This document shows positions 23,424 through 34,612 of a stretch of DNA of 64,000 nucleotides, piece after piece. Numbering within the stretch: position 1 is the stretch's first letter; each line of letters starts with the position of its first letter. The translations under genes were made by a program, and so were the position numbers. Source of the stretch: Rhodoferax sp. WC2427 (GTDB lineage: Bacteria; Pseudomonadota; Gammaproteobacteria; Burkholderiales; Burkholderiaceae_C); NCBI RefSeq assembly GCF_040822085.1, contig NZ_CP162006.1, forward strand, positions 4,526,001 to 4,590,000. Reading direction: 5' to 3'. The notes under the pieces were generated by a model. That model was not told where the DNA came from, did not search any database, and worked only from the letters and a program-made list of their open reading frames with translations.

Positions 23424-23478
23424 ACAGGCCTCTTGTGCTTATTCCATCGGCACAAGCAGCTCTTTTTTCTGTAGCAGA
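23424..23478. repeat. Dispersed palindromic intergenic repeat, copy 7
   Basis: Contains CTTGTGCTTATTCCATCGGC followed by ACAAGCAGCT; arms CTTGTGC and GCACAAG. It lies directly after tmpB. Confidence 0.85.
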
Positions 23479-30429: not shown

Positions 30430-31725
30430 GTGGAAAAAGCTGTTTTGGTAATAATTGGGGCGATTTTTTTACTCGCTCTCTTATATTGGGCATTCAAACT
30501 TGGCAAGAAGAGAGTAGCGGTAACGAAGCCCGAGCTCGACGCTGTTTCTACAACGCTTGTAAATGTGCAGCCGTTCACATCGCATATCAGATCGGCATTA
30601 GCGAACTTTGAACTCTTAGACGACCAAGGCAAAGTCATGATCGCAAGCAGGGAGTTGGAATGCATGCCCAATAGTGGAGCGGAACTCAAGCCAACCGCCG
30701 AAACTGGGAAACTAATTACCCGGCTTGCAAGCGAGTTTTTCAAAGGTGCAGTCAGTATTCCCGGCAAGACGGTGGAAATCGTTTTTCATCCACGAGTTCA
30801 AGAAGGTTTACGTGATGGAACTTTCAGCCTAATGCAAACCAGAACCGGTGAAGTATTGGCAGATGCTGTGAACAACGCTTCTGGGAGGATTGTCGGAAAA
30901 GGGAGAATAGTTCAGACAGGGCAGGTCAAGCAACTTGCAGCTGGCGCTTTTCAGCTTGCCAGTATCGTGGTGGCTCAATCTCATTTGGCTGACATAGAGC
31001 GGTCCCTTAGCGCGTTGAAAGGTGGCATTAATCAAGTCCTGGACAATATGGAGGCATCTGATGTGGCCAGCATCAAAGGGGGCATCGCTTACCTGGAACA
31101 AGTCGCAGATCTCATCAAATCGAACGGAGTTCCGGATCAACTGAGCATGCCCCTTCAGGTCACCATTGCTCAGCTCGTTTTATCTTCCAATGTATGGCGT
31201 GAGAAGCTTTTTGAAGATGTTCGCAGCCTTATCCACCGGATTGGGGGGCAGCAGGATCAGGACTCGTGGGGTGGAACGGAGAACACCTACAAGGCTCTTC
31301 TCTCCCATGCAGATGTTACGGACAAACTGGCAAAGCGTTATGACTTGTACACCGACTTCGTCAGGCTTCTGGACTTCTTACTCATCTATATCGATCCTCT
31401 CAAAAAGAACTTTGTACCACCGCAAGTAGACGGAGCTCAGTGGGAGGGTCTTCTCAGCAACTTGCGAGATGGGCTCGCAGCTAAGACAGATGAATTGATT
31501 AAGGCCATATTCAACAGCGATGAAATTCTCCAAGCCCGTAAAGACAAGATTAATCTAAAAATGGACAAATTCGTGGAGATTGGTGTAGGTCAGCTTCGAG
31601 CATATGAAGCCTTCTCACTCAATTTGTCTCAACGGCTGGACCTTATTTTGTCTGCCTCAGACGGAGTGAAATTAGCAATCGCATTCGATGATGACGGTGA
31701 AGTGAAAAGAGCCTCTTTGCAGTAG
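30430..31725 (+). CDS. Orphan AT-richer membrane-anchored protein of unknown function
   Basis: A 431-residue protein starting at GTG 30430, with GGAAGG about 8 bases upstream. One membrane helix at about 4-23 (KAVLVIIGAIFLLALLYWAF) is followed by a soluble, largely helical domain of about 400 residues. A Gly-rich stretch near 150-160 (GRIVGKGRIVQTGQVKQL) precedes helices around ADIERSLSALKGGINQVLDN. I do not recognise the family. Base composition and codon use are clearly AT-richer than in neighbouring genes. It is followed directly by the first of three long repeats, which suggests acquisition with the accessory patch. Confidence 0.75.
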   Translation: MEKAVLVIIGAIFLLALLYWAFKLGKKRVAVTKPELDAVSTTLVNVQPFTSHIRSALANFELLDDQGKVMIASRELECMPNSGAELKPTAETGKLITRLASEFFKGAVSIPGKTVEIVFHPRVQEGLRDGTFSLMQTRTGEVLADAVNNASGRIVGKGRIVQTGQVKQLAAGAFQLASIVVAQSHLADIERSLSALKGGINQVLDNMEASDVASIKGGIAYLEQVADLIKSNGVPDQLSMPLQVTIAQLVLSSNVWREKLFEDVRSLIHRIGGQQDQDSWGGTENTYKALLSHADVTDKLAKRYDLYTDFVRLLDFLLIYIDPLKKNFVPPQVDGAQWEGLLSNLRDGLAAKTDELIKAIFNSDEILQARKDKINLKMDKFVEIGVGQLRAYEAFSLNLSQRLDLILSASDGVKLAIAFDDDGEVKRASLQ

Positions 31726-31785
31726 ATTTTTGGTTCAAGTCTTACCCAAAGCTAAATGCAATTCCCTCAGTCCAGCGCCCACAAG

Positions 31786-32184
31786 CTCGCGACCGGCGCG
31801 ATGCCCGGCATAGCCGGGCCGATCCCGCTCCCCGGGGTCCCCATCTGTGTGCGCCGAGGAGCACAGCTTTGGGCGGATTAGGGCTGGCGTTGTTTGAGCG
31901 CCAGCGAGTTTAGCCAGACCCCGCCCAAAGCGCGCACCGCAGGTTCCCGCAGCGCCAGCGGAGGGCGCAGACAGTTGGGGCGCCTTTCTTTGGGTTACTT
32001 TTCTTTTGCGCAAAAGAACAAGTGACTGCGCCGCCGGGGCGCACTACCCGGCCGGGGATGCTGGCAGCCCCCCAGAAAACGTCAACGTCAACCCGCCAAT
32101 AGGGGTCGGAGCCCAAATGCGGGGTACACCGTGCTCGACCCGCCAGCTTTGATCGCGCAATTGGGATCCGACCCCCATTGGCTA
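31786..32184. repeat. Long structured intergenic repeat, copy R1
   Basis: About 400 bp shared with R2 and R3. Landmarks in order: GGCGCGATGCCCGGCATAGC; CCCCATCTGTGTGCGCCGAG; a T-rich/A-rich hairpin at about 31998-32022; then an inverted repeat with arms at 32102-32121 (GGGGTCGGAGCCCAAATGCG) and 32156-32175 (CGCAATTGGGATCCGACCCC). Open frames across the copies differ in phase, so it is judged non-coding. Confidence 0.8.
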
Positions 32185-32204
32185 ACGCCCGTGCAGTCTG
32201 CACA

Positions 32205-32295
32205 TTTTGGTAGTTAAAAATAGAAGCTGCTTACGCTCATCTGGTAAGCACAATCAGCCTTTTTGGTATCTGAAAATGGGCCTAAATTTCTGAAA
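32205..32295. repeat. Dispersed palindromic repeat, extended form, copy 9
   Basis: Contains TTTTGGTAGTTAAAAATAGA, AGCTGCTTACGCTCATCTGG and the tail TTGGTATCTGAAAATGGGCC, the longer version of the family, between R1 and the GrpB gene. Confidence 0.8.
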
Positions 32296-32305
32296 AACAT
32301 CCACC

Positions 32306-32842
32306 ATGACCGAACAAGAATCTCTGCTCGCGGCCATCCACGAAGAGGTGCGCCTGCACCCCTATGACCCATCGTGGCCCCCTGCGTTTGCAGCTGAGCA
32401 GGCGCGGCTGGCTTCTATGCTGCCAGCTGTGTTCCAGGACATCGCGCACATCGGAAGCACCGCCGTACCCGGCATGCCCGCCAAGCCCATCATTGATCTA
32501 TTGGCCGGTGTGGAATCCATGGCGTTAGCGAAGTCCATTGCCGCGCAGGTCTGCCAATCGGGCTATACCACATCGGCGGAGTTCAATGCCAGCCTGCAAG
32601 ACCGCCAGTGGTTCATGCGCTGGGCCGAAGGGCACCGCACGCACCACCTCCATGTGGTGGTGCACGCAAGCGAGGTCTGGCACGCGCATCTGGCGTTTCG
32701 CGATGCCCTGCGGTCAGACGCTGCGCTTGCGGCCCGCTATGCGGCGCTCAAATCCGACCTCGCCGCACGCCACACCACCGACCGAGAGGCCTATACGGAT
32801 GCCAAGGCCGCCTTTATTCGCTCCGCACTGGGCGACGGCTGA
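32306..32842 (+). CDS. GrpB family protein (UPF0157)
   Basis: A 178-residue member of the nucleotidyltransferase-fold GrpB family. The N-terminus has VRLHPYDPSWPPAFAAEQAR; the hallmark HIGSTAVPGMPAKPIIDLL lies near 50-68, with the GS and the Asp typical of the nucleotidyltransferase superfamily. The middle has WFMRWAEGHRTHHLHVV near 95-110 and the C-terminus a charged helix ending DAKAAFIRSALG. The molecular function is unknown in general. Repeats flank the gene on both sides and no operon partner is present. Confidence 0.9.
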   Translation: MTEQESLLAAIHEEVRLHPYDPSWPPAFAAEQARLASMLPAVFQDIAHIGSTAVPGMPAKPIIDLLAGVESMALAKSIAAQVCQSGYTTSAEFNASLQDRQWFMRWAEGHRTHHLHVVVHASEVWHAHLAFRDALRSDAALAARYAALKSDLAARHTTDREAYTDAKAAFIRSALGDG

Positions 32843-32879
32843 GGCGGGCCATGGAGCCGACCACTTCACCGGTATAAAT

Positions 32880-32980
32880 GCTGCGTTTTGGATAGTTAAA
32901 AATAGGAGCTGCTTGTGCTGATTGGATCAGCGTAAGAGGGCAATTTGGCATCTGAAAAATGGCCTGAAAGTCTCAAACTA
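32880..32980. repeat. Dispersed palindromic repeat, extended form, copy 10
   Basis: Contains TTGGATAGTTAAAAATAGGA, GCTGCTTGTGCTGATTGGAT and the tail GGCATCTGAAAAATGGCCTG. It is continuous with R2; the same junction recurs at copy 12/R3. Confidence 0.8.
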
Positions 32981-33400
32981 GCGCAATTGCCATCCGTGCT
33001 CGCGCCCTAGGCGCGATGCCCGGCAGAGCCGGGCCGATTCCGCTTCCGGGGTCCCCATCTGTATGCGCCGAGGAGCACAGCTTTGGGCGGATCAAGGCTG
33101 GCGTTGTCTGAGCGCCAGCGAGTTTAGCCAGACCCCGTCCAAAGCGCGCACCGCAGGTTCCCCGGCGCGGTAGCGACGGGGCGCAGACAGTTGGGGCGCC
33201 TTTCTTTTGGTGTCTTTTCTTTTGCGTAAAAGAAAAGATACTGCGCCGCCGGGCGCACTACCCGGCCGGGGATGCTGGCGAGCACCCAGAAACCGTCAAC
33301 GTCAACCCACCAATAGGGGTCGGAGCCCAAATGCGGGATACACCGTGCTCGATCCGCCAGCTCTGATCGCGCAATTGGGATCCGACCCCCATTGGCTACG
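32981..33400. repeat. Long structured intergenic repeat, copy R2
   Basis: The same landmarks as R1 and R3. The central hairpin has perfect 11-bp arms TCTTTTCTTTT (33213-33223) and AAAAGAAAAGA (33228-33238). The second inverted repeat has arms at 33316-33335 and 33370-33389. From 33401 to 33485 the sequence diverges and no gene is seen. Confidence 0.82.
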
Positions 33401-33485
33401 ATGGCACTTTTGCCGCCAGCACCCGTTGCGCAATCGGGAACCGCACCCATTCGCTTCGACCCGCGGAGTCGAAACAAATTGCTTC

Positions 33486-33580
33486 TTTTTTGATAGTTAA
33501 AAATAGGAGCTGCTTACGCCCATAGGATAAGCACAGGCTGCCGTTTTGGCATCTGAAAATGGACCCGAAAATCTGAAATA
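33486..33580. repeat. Dispersed palindromic repeat, extended form, copy 11
   Basis: Contains TTTGATAGTTAAAAATAGGA, GCTGCTTACGCCCATAGGAT and the tail TTGGCATCTGAAAATGGACC, upstream of the DUF488 gene. Confidence 0.8.
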
Positions 33581-33646
33581 GTCTGCTGCACAAACCACGC
33601 CAAAGCGCGGCTATAGTTTTGCGGTATTTGTACCAAGGAGCACAGC

Positions 33647-34033
33647 ATGGTGGTTCGCATTGTCCAACTGGGTAGCCCCCGAGACCCGCAAGAAGGCACC
33701 CGCATCGGCACGGTGCGCCGGCCCCCGCGCGGGGTGCCCAAAGCCGAGTTTGCGACGGGAAACTGGTACGACGTGTGGTACCCCAACCTGGCCCCCAGCG
33801 CCGACACCATGAAGCTGGGCCAGACCGCCGAGACCCCGGAGCAATGGCGCGCTTTCGAGAAAAAGTACAAGGCCGAAATGGCCACCCCCGACAACACCCG
33901 CACCCTGGCCCTGCTGGCCACCCTGTCCCACCAAAGCCACTTCTCGGTGGGCTGCTACTGCGTGGAAGAAGCGCATTGCCACCGCTCGATCCTGCGGCAT
34001 TTGCTGGTAGAAGCTGGGGCCAATGTGCAGTAG
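33647..34033 (+). CDS. DUF488 family protein
   Basis: A 128-residue protein with AAGGAG upstream of the ATG. It begins MVVRIVQLGSPRDPQEGTRI; the family region WYDVWYPNLAPSADTMKLGQ lies near 40-60, and the C-terminal motif GCYCVEEAHCHRSILRHLL, with clustered Cys/His, lies near 103-121. DUF488 proteins have no established function; the conserved Cys/His end suggests metal or redox chemistry. It is a single gene between two long repeats. Confidence 0.88.
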   Translation: MVVRIVQLGSPRDPQEGTRIGTVRRPPRGVPKAEFATGNWYDVWYPNLAPSADTMKLGQTAETPEQWRAFEKKYKAEMATPDNTRTLALLATLSHQSHFSVGCYCVEEAHCHRSILRHLLVEAGANVQ

Positions 34034-34044
34034 CGTTGCGCTAC

Positions 34045-34130
34045 TGTTTTGGTAGTTAAAAATAGGAGCCGCTTGCGCTGATTGAATAAGCGCAGGAGGT
34101 CGATTTGGCACCTGAAAAATGGCCTGAAAG
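34045..34130. repeat. Dispersed palindromic repeat, extended form, copy 12
   Basis: Contains TTGGTAGTTAAAAATAGGAG, CCGCTTGCGCTGATTGAATA and the tail GGCACCTGAAAAATGGCCTG. It is continuous with R3. Confidence 0.8.
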
Positions 34131-34612
34131 TCTCAAACTAGCGCAATAACCATCCGTGCTCGCGCCCTAGGCGCGATGCCTGGCAAAGCCGGGCCGATCC
34201 CGCTCCCCGGGGTCCCCATCTGTATGCGCCGAGGAGCGCAGCTTTGGGCGGATCAGGGCTGGCGTCTGTTTGAGCCGAAGGCGAGTTTAGCCAGACCCCG
34301 GTCAAAGCGAGCACCGCAGGTTCCCCGGCGCGGTAGCGACGGGGCGCAGACAGTTGGGGCGCCTTTCTTTGGGTTACCTTTCTTTGGCGTTCAAAGAAAG
34401 GTGACTGCGCCGCCGGGCGCAACTCCCGGCCGACGATGCTGGCGGGCACCCAGAAAAGGTCAACGCCCACCCGCCAATAGGGGTCGGAGCCCAAATGCGG
34501 GGTACATCCCTCTCCAACCGCCAGCTTTGATCGCGCAATTGGGATCCGACCCCCATTGGCTACGAATGCGCGTTTCCCGCCAGCAGCCGTTGCGCGATGG
34601 GGATCCGACCCC
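34131..34612. repeat. Long structured intergenic repeat, copy R3
   Basis: The third copy. The central hairpin has perfect 11-bp arms ACCTTTCTTTG (34376-34386) and CAAAGAAAGGT (34392-34402), differing from R2 by paired changes. The second inverted repeat has arms at 34480-34499 and 34534-34553, with an extra GGGATCCGACCCC arm ending at 34612, right against the stop of the M24 gene. Confidence 0.82.

Follow-up and report, generated by a model that had tools for sequence, protein, structure and literature searches.

What are the three long, similarly oriented repeats that alternate with single genes in a 64,000-nucleotide stretch of Rhodoferax sp. WC2427 (contig NZ_CP162006.1; this whole stretch is referred to as the window)? 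A preliminary description, made from the letters only, had presented R1, R2 and R3 as noncoding units of 400 to 480 bp, each with a central hairpin and a second inverted repeat.

Three solo arms and their surroundings

All three cores were located in the window on the same strand; each is a solo arm, ~280 bp long, of a DNA element that is widely scattered among bacteria. The repeats are there as described, but the proposed unit consists of two modules, a structured core of ~280 bp and an inverted repeat that looks REP-like. The latter does recur, ~35 to 50 bp after each core, with 27-nt arms that are 89% complementary (or 30 nt at 87%). The features are as follows:

30430-31725, +: 431-aa ORF without a Pfam match, directly 5' of R1
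31784-32061, +: R1, solo arm, structured core (nhmmer)
31839-31855 and 31963-31980, +: R1 P1, 5' and 3' strands
31866-31876/31921-31931, +: R1 P3
31884-31917, +: R1 P4, tip C(GCCA)G
31985-31991, +: R1 third strand L1
31995-32025, +: R1 P8 hairpin
32027-32052, +: R1 P9/PK2
32095-32182, no strand assigned: REP-like inverted repeat behind R1, separate module
32194-32295, +: "tag" dispersed repeat (family D2) between R1 and grpB
32876-32977, 33477-33578 and 34036-34137: other "tag" copies
32306-32842, +: GrpB-family gene, one-gene "cassette" between R1 and R2 (Pfam PF04229, 4.1e-48)
32999-33275, +: R2, solo arm (nhmmer)
32999-33016 and 33018-33034, +: R2 5' hairpins
33053-33069/33179-33196, +: R2 P1
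33080-33090/33135-33145, +: R2 P3
33098-33131, +: R2 P4
33201-33208, +: R2 third strand L1
33196-33199 with P8 loop 33224-33227, +: putative R2 PK1, as read from the letters
33210-33241, +: R2 P8
33242-33266, +: R2 P9/PK2
33309-33396, no strand assigned: REP-like inverted repeat behind R2, separate module
33647-34033, +: DUF488 gene, one-gene "cassette" between R2 and R3 (Pfam PF22751, 9.1e-44)
34159-34439, +: R3, solo arm (nhmmer)
34214-34230/34342-34359, +: R3 P1
34241-34251/34298-34308, +: R3 P3
34259-34294, +: R3 P4, tip CC(GAA)GG
34364-34370, +: R3 L1
34373-34405, +: R3 P8
34406-34430, +: R3 P9/PK2
34473-34560, no strand assigned: REP-like inverted repeat behind R3, separate module

Gene order around the GrpB-family and DUF488 cassettes is identical in a relative (G007), which has an inverted arm pair at the spot where the window has R1 alone. 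The REP-like repeat is a module apart from the core, since it occurs without the core at genome positions 2375488 and 3839552 and is missing at an orthologous site of a relative (L009 versus L166). The only Y1 transposase (RAYT-like) gene of the genome is flanked by palindromes resembling this repeat, and not by arms. The tag is a third dispersed repeat adjoining R1 to R3.

A coding repeat was ruled out: no frame was open in most arms (with frames counted from the start of the arm, the best of the six is open in 47 of 103), and arm lengths did not run in threes (36/36/31 across the classes modulo 3), in keeping with the noncoding nature suggested at the outset. The suspicion that copies are misannotated as hypothetical proteins was borne out for one arm ORF, for which 14 of 33 candidates were matches, including ones from Comamonadaceae bacterium OS-1 and Rhodoferax sp. 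OV413; for another arm ORF, none of 10 candidates matched.

A pseudoknotted fold with a predicted triple helix

The central hairpin arms quoted earlier for R2 and R3 match those in the window, and where at least three paired changes had been claimed, the 14-bp stem has four positions that changed on both sides between R2 and R3 with pairing (wobble included) retained. The hairpin is present in all three repeats but is not the whole story, as it belongs to a larger pseudoknotted fold. This fold has about nine helices. Its closing stem is P1, and its other parts are P2-P3-P4, tipped by C(GNA)G, as well as P5 and the hairpins P8 and P9, of which P9 is the 3' one; the apical loop of P8 pairs with the strand just 5' of it, forming pseudoknot PK1. 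The covariation test that the preliminary description had proposed, run on 103 diverse arms with a tree-aware null, yielded 49 column pairs over E = 0.05 (top score, 218 observed versus 74 in the null), and PK1 columns 141-170 and 142-169 were significant. The folded strand can be identified because G.T pairs outnumber A.C pairs on one strand by 257 to 31 (~8:1). Together with the lack of a conserved frame, covariation and strand bias bear out the proposed selection on single-stranded structure: as the aligned sequences show, each arm is constrained to fold on itself as a sense strand of about 215 nt.

Parallel contacts (columns 148-178 and 149-179) that link the purine strand of P8 to a loop strand made of pyrimidines were also significant. 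That purine strand is part of the hairpin singled out in the preliminary description. The polypyrimidine strand, L1, lies between PK1 and P8 and matches the P8 purine strand in parallel register: in register (offset 30), 755 of 794 cells (95%) are triple compatible, versus 326 to 465 of 792 to 796 cells (41 to 58%) at six neighboring offsets. Block types of L1/P8 are TTTTCTTT/AAAAGAAA, TTTCTTTT/AAAGAAAA and TTCTCTTT/AAGAGAAA, with TTTTGTTT/AAAATAAA and TTTGCTTT/AAATGAAA as further types. On the tree, columns 149 and 179 underwent 26 and 25 changes, 22 of them on the same branch (controls: mean, 0.98; maximum, 3). We infer that the match represents a telomerase-type major-groove triple helix, predicted to consist of U.A-U, C+.G-C and, occasionally, G.U-A triplets; against it count 39 misfits among the 794 cells and two arms in which TAGGGTT faces AAATCCC or ATTTCCC, giving no canonical triplets. 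With the loop pairing to the 5' strand (stem 1) and loop 1 parallel to the purine strand of stem 2, the arrangement would be that of a triple-helix H-type pseudoknot.

Of 207 arms, 43 were not parsed; in 125 of the other 164, the tip of P4 is a C(GNA)G triloop, and in none is it GNRA or TNCG. Loops of the C(GNA)G type are exceptionally stable in DNA and, given this stability, the tips favor single-stranded DNA (ssDNA). For a second pseudoknot, PK2, the loop-tail complement run was 4.0, versus 3.1 in shuffled sequences (maximum of 300 shuffles, 3.4). A 6-bp PK2 was counted in 39 of 100 arms by a finder that often chooses a competing helix, and PK2 is missing from several distant arms; we claim PK2 for a subset of arms only. 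The P8 finder parsed 87 of 102 arms. In a comparison of 11 orthologous pairs of arms, single changes in stems look neutral (17 breaks, 6 wobbles). There are also 45 compensated double changes, of which 37 belong to three arms, where most fall in P3, P4 and P8.

Inverted pairs as the usual unit

Within the examined stretch, a second arm was present at 42 of 74 loci in one set and at 47 of 60 in another (the sets share some sites), and paired arms always stood head to head, (-) then (+), with no other order found. Loci where only a single arm passed the cut (32 of 74 and 13 of 60) count against the pair as the unit. In six genomes of other genera, 18 of 20 loci were pairs, as were 5 of 7 among the loci not earlier seen as pairs. 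A pair measures about 550 to 620 bp, or about 750 bp with the outer inverted repeats of recent copies, and is a heterodimer of two different arm types. One genome (G150) contains three near-identical pairs whose outer repeat changes are private to each copy and two-sided, and in WC2427 the same inner pair occurs at two places; recent copies have demonstrably spread as heterodimers, as far as can be read from their sequences. Outer inverted repeats, seen in recent copies (G150, L007 and L012), differ between lineages and also between L007 and L012. By eye, the G150 ends have no clear target-site duplication, and the loci compared yielded no clean empty site for an entire pair. The earlier suggestion of a mobile noncoding element agrees with such near-identical pairs at different sites and with a variable copy number.

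Distribution and genomic context

WC2427 carries ~25 arms. A covariance model found arms in 85 of 150 sampled family genomes at E ≤ 1e-4 (57 at 1e-12) and in 50 of 274 class genomes at 1e-12; copy number varies widely among relatives, and many genomes have no arm at all. In the window and 19 further loci, Rfam 15 gave no match over the gathering cutoff, and a relaxed search with R2 returned five low-scoring matches (four miRNA/lncRNA models and one InvR), all far below it. If our reading is right, a nucleic acid family of this breadth is without an Rfam entry, perhaps partly because copies have been called hypothetical proteins. By blastn, which would miss more divergent arms, R2 matched 1 of 72,556 plasmid records and none of 50,697 phage or 20,395 E. 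coli records. No paper about the element came up in a literature search outside subscription journals and bioRxiv, for which the text of six core sequences was also used; only PMC3110155 (on BRE) and PMC11109978 looked close.

Arms sit between convergent genes or behind genes and rarely between divergent ones: 23 of 45 pairs were in convergent, 20 in codirectional and 2 in divergent contexts. Of 22 solo arms, 16 lie behind a gene on their own strand; in codirectional gaps, solo arms have no preferred orientation (5 versus 4). Several sites are kept between species. Copies may enclose unrelated single genes, as with the cassettes of the window, and the cargo differs between species.

The linked recombinase or transposase that had been suggested was not found near the arms. 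In an all-against-all comparison of flanking ORFs of at least 70 aa from 158 loci, none of the top 25 clusters listed (at least 4 loci each) was an arm-linked enzyme of this kind; these clusters represent orthologous sites or, as we read them, widespread families (ABC transporter, LysR, Bug receptor). In six spaced pairs (L203 to L208), the ORFs between the arms look unrelated by eye, and two of these (L206 and L207) have no Pfam match. Reverse transcriptase was rejected as the mover (23 of 50 carriers versus 79 of 224 noncarriers; P = 0.195). Y1_Tnp is more common in carriers (42 of 50 versus 140 of 224; Fisher P = 0.003, genome size and relatedness being ignored). A reverse transcriptase domain was undetectable in 27 of 50 carriers, and 8 of 50 gave no Y1_Tnp match, some of these 8 being near complete (G193 and G169), so neither can be the general mover.

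Possible explanations

The reading that we tentatively prefer, and consider nearly as likely to be right as wrong, is that R1 to R3 are solo arms of a dispersed, selfish noncoding element that acts as a folded single strand, is mobilized in trans and usually travels as a head-to-head pair. We slightly favor RNA over ssDNA as the folded species. Read-through from either side would produce arm RNA, each transcript ending in one sense arm; the folded RNA might then be bound by machinery supplied in trans, in which case selection would act mainly on spreading copies. A more far-reaching proposal, which we regard as unlikely, makes the two different inverted triple-helix modules the left and right ends of a deeply conserved class, each strand encoding a structured RNA that would serve as ribonucleoprotein guide or scaffold for spread of the element and shuttling of single genes, that is, RNA-dependent transposition without a linked protein gene. 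Possible, although we rather doubt it, is that the folded species is ssDNA and the inverted pair a large replication hairpin, a giant REPIN, which an HUH enzyme (Y1/RAYT) or another host recombinase recognizing the folded arm would cut and paste in trans, with cassettes moving likewise. The inverted pair would then be the mobile unit, as with REPINs, and the outer repeats matched within each copy, the C(GNA)G tips and the Y1_Tnp enrichment all fit, as do the pyrimidine-motif triplets, which, G.T-A included, suit DNA triplex chemistry. However, there are the carriers without Y1_Tnp, the single Y1 gene of WC2427 is flanked by the REP-like repeat rather than by arms, and the HUH substrates known to us need far less than a 215-nt tertiary fold.

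It seems improbable to us that the arm is instead a host 3'-end element, its RNA ending transcripts or shielding mRNA 3' ends via the triple helix, with a pair serving both convergent genes. The excess of convergent over divergent sites, the solo arms behind same-strand genes and the conserved sites would be expected, but the solo-arm bias stems from convergent sites and vanishes in codirectional gaps, copy number swings among relatives down to none, the neighbors share no function beyond widespread families, and purging from promoters would yield the same placement. Least credible by far is a mutational artifact, in which hairpin-templated repair and gene conversion between arms would keep stems complementary without selection. 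Conversion could explain the clusters of double changes that three orthologous arms have in P3, P4 and P8, an L1/P8 block was apparently copied between arms in G150, and outer repeats are homogenized within copies; yet we know of no copying mechanism that would yield the parallel (mirror) L1-P8 complementarity, the PK1 pairing of a loop with upstream sequence or the G.T excess on one strand.

If the preferred reading of a trans-mobilized selfish element holds, the sharp question becomes what machinery spreads such riboswitch-sized ends, and whether as RNA or as ssDNA. With about 20 changes shared on the tree, the arms would also provide an unusually clear natural example of triple-helix covariation, and thereby a benchmark for the prediction of tertiary contacts.

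Comparison with known systems

Telomerase RNA and SAM-II riboswitches contain a major-groove triple helix like the one predicted here. We know of no homology between the arms and telomerase RNA or the SAM-II and SAM-V riboswitches, and the arms, in contrast to these RNAs, are multicopy intergenic repeats without a ligand or gene context. For SAM-V, the shared feature is described in the abstract of PMC6061858. Much as in integron attC sites and cassette arrays, structured repeats of one orientation take turns with single genes in the window (R1-grpB-R2-DUF488-R3), and the cargo differs between species; however, no integrase is among the recurrent neighbor clusters listed, the arms form inverted pairs elsewhere and have no Rfam match, and the attC fold is unlike that of the arm. 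The BRE (Beta-proteobacterial repeat element) occurs in Bordetella and in Comamonadaceae, including Rhodoferax ferrireducens, within a transcribed region, and is ~90 bp long, often tandem and 69% GC, according to PMC3110155; by this description, it would differ from the arm.

MITEs and Correia/ERIC/NEMIS-type repeats are likewise short, noncoding and mobile; they have inverted ends, for which the outer repeats of recent copies are a possible counterpart. Theirs are simple terminal repeats, whereas both arms of the present element have an elaborate, covarying, strand-specific fold. REPs are single hairpins of 20 to 40 nt. In REP/REPIN systems with a RAYT, that short, imperfect hairpin contrasts with the ~215-nt fold of about nine helices within arms of ~280 bp, with pseudoknots, a predicted triple helix and no linked RAYT, and the Y1 gene is flanked by the same repeat, whereas the Y1 gene of WC2427 is flanked by another. 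What the arms share with REPINs is that they are dispersed, intergenic and nonautonomous, with an inverted pair of structured units as the spreading unit, and the second inverted repeat of R1 to R3 does look REP-like.

Gene neighborhood of R1 to R3

The genome of Rhodoferax sp. WC2427 is a single contig of 4.78 Mb, and the gene order in the window is an ALDH gene, a 431-amino-acid open reading frame (ORF), R1, grpB, R2, a DUF488 gene, R3, and an Xaa-Pro peptidase-like gene (the ALDH and peptidase-like names were read from sequence), with grpB and DUF488 as cargo. The order is the same in its relative, G007, but there the position of R1 holds an inverted arm pair. The ORF has no Pfam match and is missing from that place in G007.

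Features in the window and at related loci
31784-32061, + strand: R1, solo arm
32999-33275, + strand: R2, solo arm
34159-34439, + strand: R3, solo arm
30430-31725: 431-amino-acid ORF between the ALDH gene and R1
32095-32182, 33309-33396, 34473-34560: REP-like inverted repeats
32194-32295, 32876-32977, 33477-33578, 34036-34137, 23429-23468: third dispersed repeat, or tag (TTTGATAGTTAAAAATAGGAGCTGCT...)
L088 1400-2270: Y1 transposase gene region
L008 2227-3532 (own genome) and L079, L166, and L169 (G007): rve/IS481-type insertion sequence

Each of R1 to R3 consists of a structured core, or arm, of about 280 bp, followed by the REP-like inverted repeat, which also occurs without a core. This repeat resembles the GGGGTCAGA.../...TCTGACCCC palindromes that flank the only Y1 transposase (RAYT-like) gene of the genome and, because it is present at some orthologous arms and absent at others, seems to move independently. 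The tag is sited behind genes, often adjoining arms, and surrounds some pairs of arms in inverted orientation.

Covariation and fold

RNAalifold on A1 yielded a closed multihelix structure (-147.5 with covariation bonus). For the covariation test, 103 of 117 model-aligned arms were kept (filters, 92% identity and 70% coverage; 212 columns), and the APC-corrected G statistic was compared with 40 null alignments, in which the parsimony substitutions of each branch of a FastTree tree were put at random columns. Forty-nine column pairs lay above the E=0.05 threshold, bearing out the preliminary description, which had proposed selection on structure. They fall in helices P1, P2, P3, P4, P8, and P9, in PK1 (141-170 and 142-169), a pseudoknot between the P8 loop and an upstream strand, and in the three strands of the P8 region; the alignment was fitted to the nested helices of the model and favors those, while PK1 and the third strand lie outside it. 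All four Watson-Crick types occur at 9 of the 11 P3 pairs (90% Watson-Crick cells), and P1b is weak (46%). Almost certainly, then, the sense strand is constrained to fold as a single strand, and the predicted pseudoknot PK1 is very probable.

Predicted triple helix

The strand linking PK1 and P8 (L1) is a polypyrimidine and the mirror image, not a copy, of the P8 5' strand; it therefore matches the purine strand in parallel. At offset 30, 755 of the 794 cells in columns 145 to 152 are T.A, C.G, or G.T (39 do not fit), compared with 326 to 465 of 792 to 796 at offsets 27 to 29 and 31 to 33. For 87 of the 102 unique arms, the mean length of the parallel run was 7.41, a value that none of 2,000 shuffles reached; shuffling the partners gave a mean of 6.90, and the antiparallel run averaged 6.98. 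Columns 149 and 179 changed 26 and 25 times on the tree, with 22 branches in common (148/178, 18; 147/177, 7), whereas control pairs shared 0.98 on average and 3 at most; these changes are less independent than they appear, since some are block exchanges between arms. Even so, block exchange leaves the repertoire of block types to be explained. Rare L1/P8 types include TTCTCTTT/AAGAGAAA, TTTTGTTT/AAAATAAA, and TTTGCTTT/AAATGAAA; the last two fit the expectation for G reading a T-A pair, as in the G.T-A triplet. In two arms the third strand follows the purine strand despite a mismatch in the P8 5' strand; two arms with TAGGGTT opposite AAATCCC/ATTTCCC were counted against the triple. We hold the predicted parallel triple to be likely, with good confidence.

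RNA or single-stranded DNA

In the nested helices, G.T outnumbers A.C by 257 to 31 (43 of the 257 come from a single P8 pair), and the folded strand is therefore the sense strand; double-stranded cruciforms alone would not yield this excess. As to its chemistry, we lean slightly toward RNA, because H-type pseudoknots whose loop 1 occupies the major groove are a classic RNA motif and that same P8 pair tolerates wobble freely. Single-stranded DNA falls just short of an even chance: of the 164 arms that could be parsed (another 43 of the 207 could not), 125 close P4 with a C(GNA)G triloop, variable in stem and N, and none with GNRA or TNCG, and d(GNA) loops form extra-stable DNA minihairpins.

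The pair as the usual unit

With R2 as the BLAST query, 33 matches were found in the genome; once four REP-like-only matches, three short hairpin matches, and the separated tail of one interrupted copy were set aside, we counted about 25 arms, 16 of which, on our reading, form eight head-to-head pairs (52 to 121 bp between matches). A profile search gave 114 matches across 76 sequences, duplicates and fragments included. The covariance model found a second arm at 42 of 74 loci in one set and 47 of 60 in another (some sites being common to both), invariably in the order (-) then (+); at the cut used, 32 and 13 loci, respectively, had one arm only, some of them at contig ends. In six genomes of other genera, 18 of 20 loci were pairs, including 5 of the 7 not previously seen as such.

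Pairs are heterodimers: each of the three in the carrier genome G150 couples two arms of unequal score, in either orientation. These three are near-identical over about 700 bp, including outer inverted repeats of about 90 bp that differ from copy to copy but match within one. At two loci of the Rhodoferax genome (L007 and L012), the inner pair and spacer are common to both, in opposite orientation, with different outer inverted repeats. Both observations make the pair most likely the unit that spreads, and we infer that its outer parts are homogenized within each copy, via conversion or hairpin-templated repair. In another carrier (G117; L177, L178, L180, and L181), pairs have a CTTCGACAAGCTCAGCCCGAACGG-type repeat inside the outer inverted repeats, and in their spacer a palindrome precedes a T-rich stretch on each strand.

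Range across genomes

Named contigs with the core motif belong to Rhodoferax, Comamonadaceae, or Burkholderiales, and a DNA similarity search matched 13 of 30 genomes, including this one and all seven others of its genus. In the family sample of 150 genomes, covariance model R1 (28 sequences, 215 positions) had matches in 85 at E≤1e-4 and in 57 at the stricter 1e-12; E values are rough owing to short calibration, and the weakest of these family matches may be chance. At 1e-12, matches occurred in 50 of the 274 genomes sampled from the class and in 15 of the 299 sampled from the phylum, all 15 inside the class. Matches range from 37% to 70% GC, and in most of them the TGTTTGAGCG..GCGAGTT core is kept together with the P8 pseudoknot. 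With 7 to 15 candidates scored per genome, the copy numbers are minimum values; in draft genomes they are probably underestimates because arms often end contigs. Arms in MAG contigs are frequently terminal (e.g., L021, L027, L053, and L060), and the element may break short-read assemblies.

Placement and change in place

Gene calls in 60 loci and the window came from a home-made codon model. Both neighbors were available for all 45 pairs (23 convergent, 20 codirectional, and 2 divergent) and for 22 of 24 solo arms (11 convergent, 9 codirectional [5 sense, 4 antisense], and 2 divergent); these are raw counts, not all independent, as the Rhodoferax genome and G007 have sites in common, and the left neighbor of R1 counts as the ALDH gene because the caller missed the 431-amino-acid ORF. 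Placement is thus behind genes, as would be expected equally of selfish repeats purged from promoters and of 3'-end elements.

Single genes bordered by arms differ between the two genomes: where L001 of the Rhodoferax genome has a GNAT-like gene (read from sequence), G007 carries a second arm together with a GDSL hydrolase. To explain such differences, homologous recombination between arms would suffice. G007 also has a VapBC toxin-antitoxin pair (L175, 2324-3024) flanked by the 5' end of an arm and a tag, at a place where L005 of the Rhodoferax genome has no gene. At several different loci, an insertion sequence of about 1.3 kb with an rve/IS481-type transposase is located at, or close to, the P8 hairpin of an arm, which suggests that it targets this structure.

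Eleven orthologous arm pairs of the two genomes (R1 to R3 excluded) show 45 compensated and 8 uncompensated double changes; single changes comprise 6 wobbles and 17 breaks, and stems diverge more than loops (135/1,223 versus 83/1,070). As three arms hold 37 of the 45 compensated doubles, largely within P3, P4, and P8, conversion from other copies is their likely source; the remaining single changes look neutral. The pattern agrees better with selection acting while copies spread than with selection on each resident copy, without being decisive.

Mechanism and comparison with known systems

On balance, we think the element probably selfish rather than a host function. It would spread in trans via its folded single strand, probably RNA from read-through. 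Y1 transposases occur in 42 of 50 carriers and 140 of 224 noncarriers and are thus more frequent in carriers, yet not universal; reverse transcriptases showed no association with carrier status in the same 50 and 224 genomes.

Neither the window nor 19 further loci matched any Rfam family, and no paper on the element was found in the searchable literature; only hypothetical-protein annotations turned up, in keeping with the earlier remark that such repeats were known solely in that guise. The organization is like that of REPINs and the array like that of integron cassettes, but in each case a feature that was tested sets the element apart; its knot is like that of telomerase RNA. Within the searchable literature and databases, the case for an element new in kind rests on this combination of REPIN-, telomerase RNA-, and integron-like traits.
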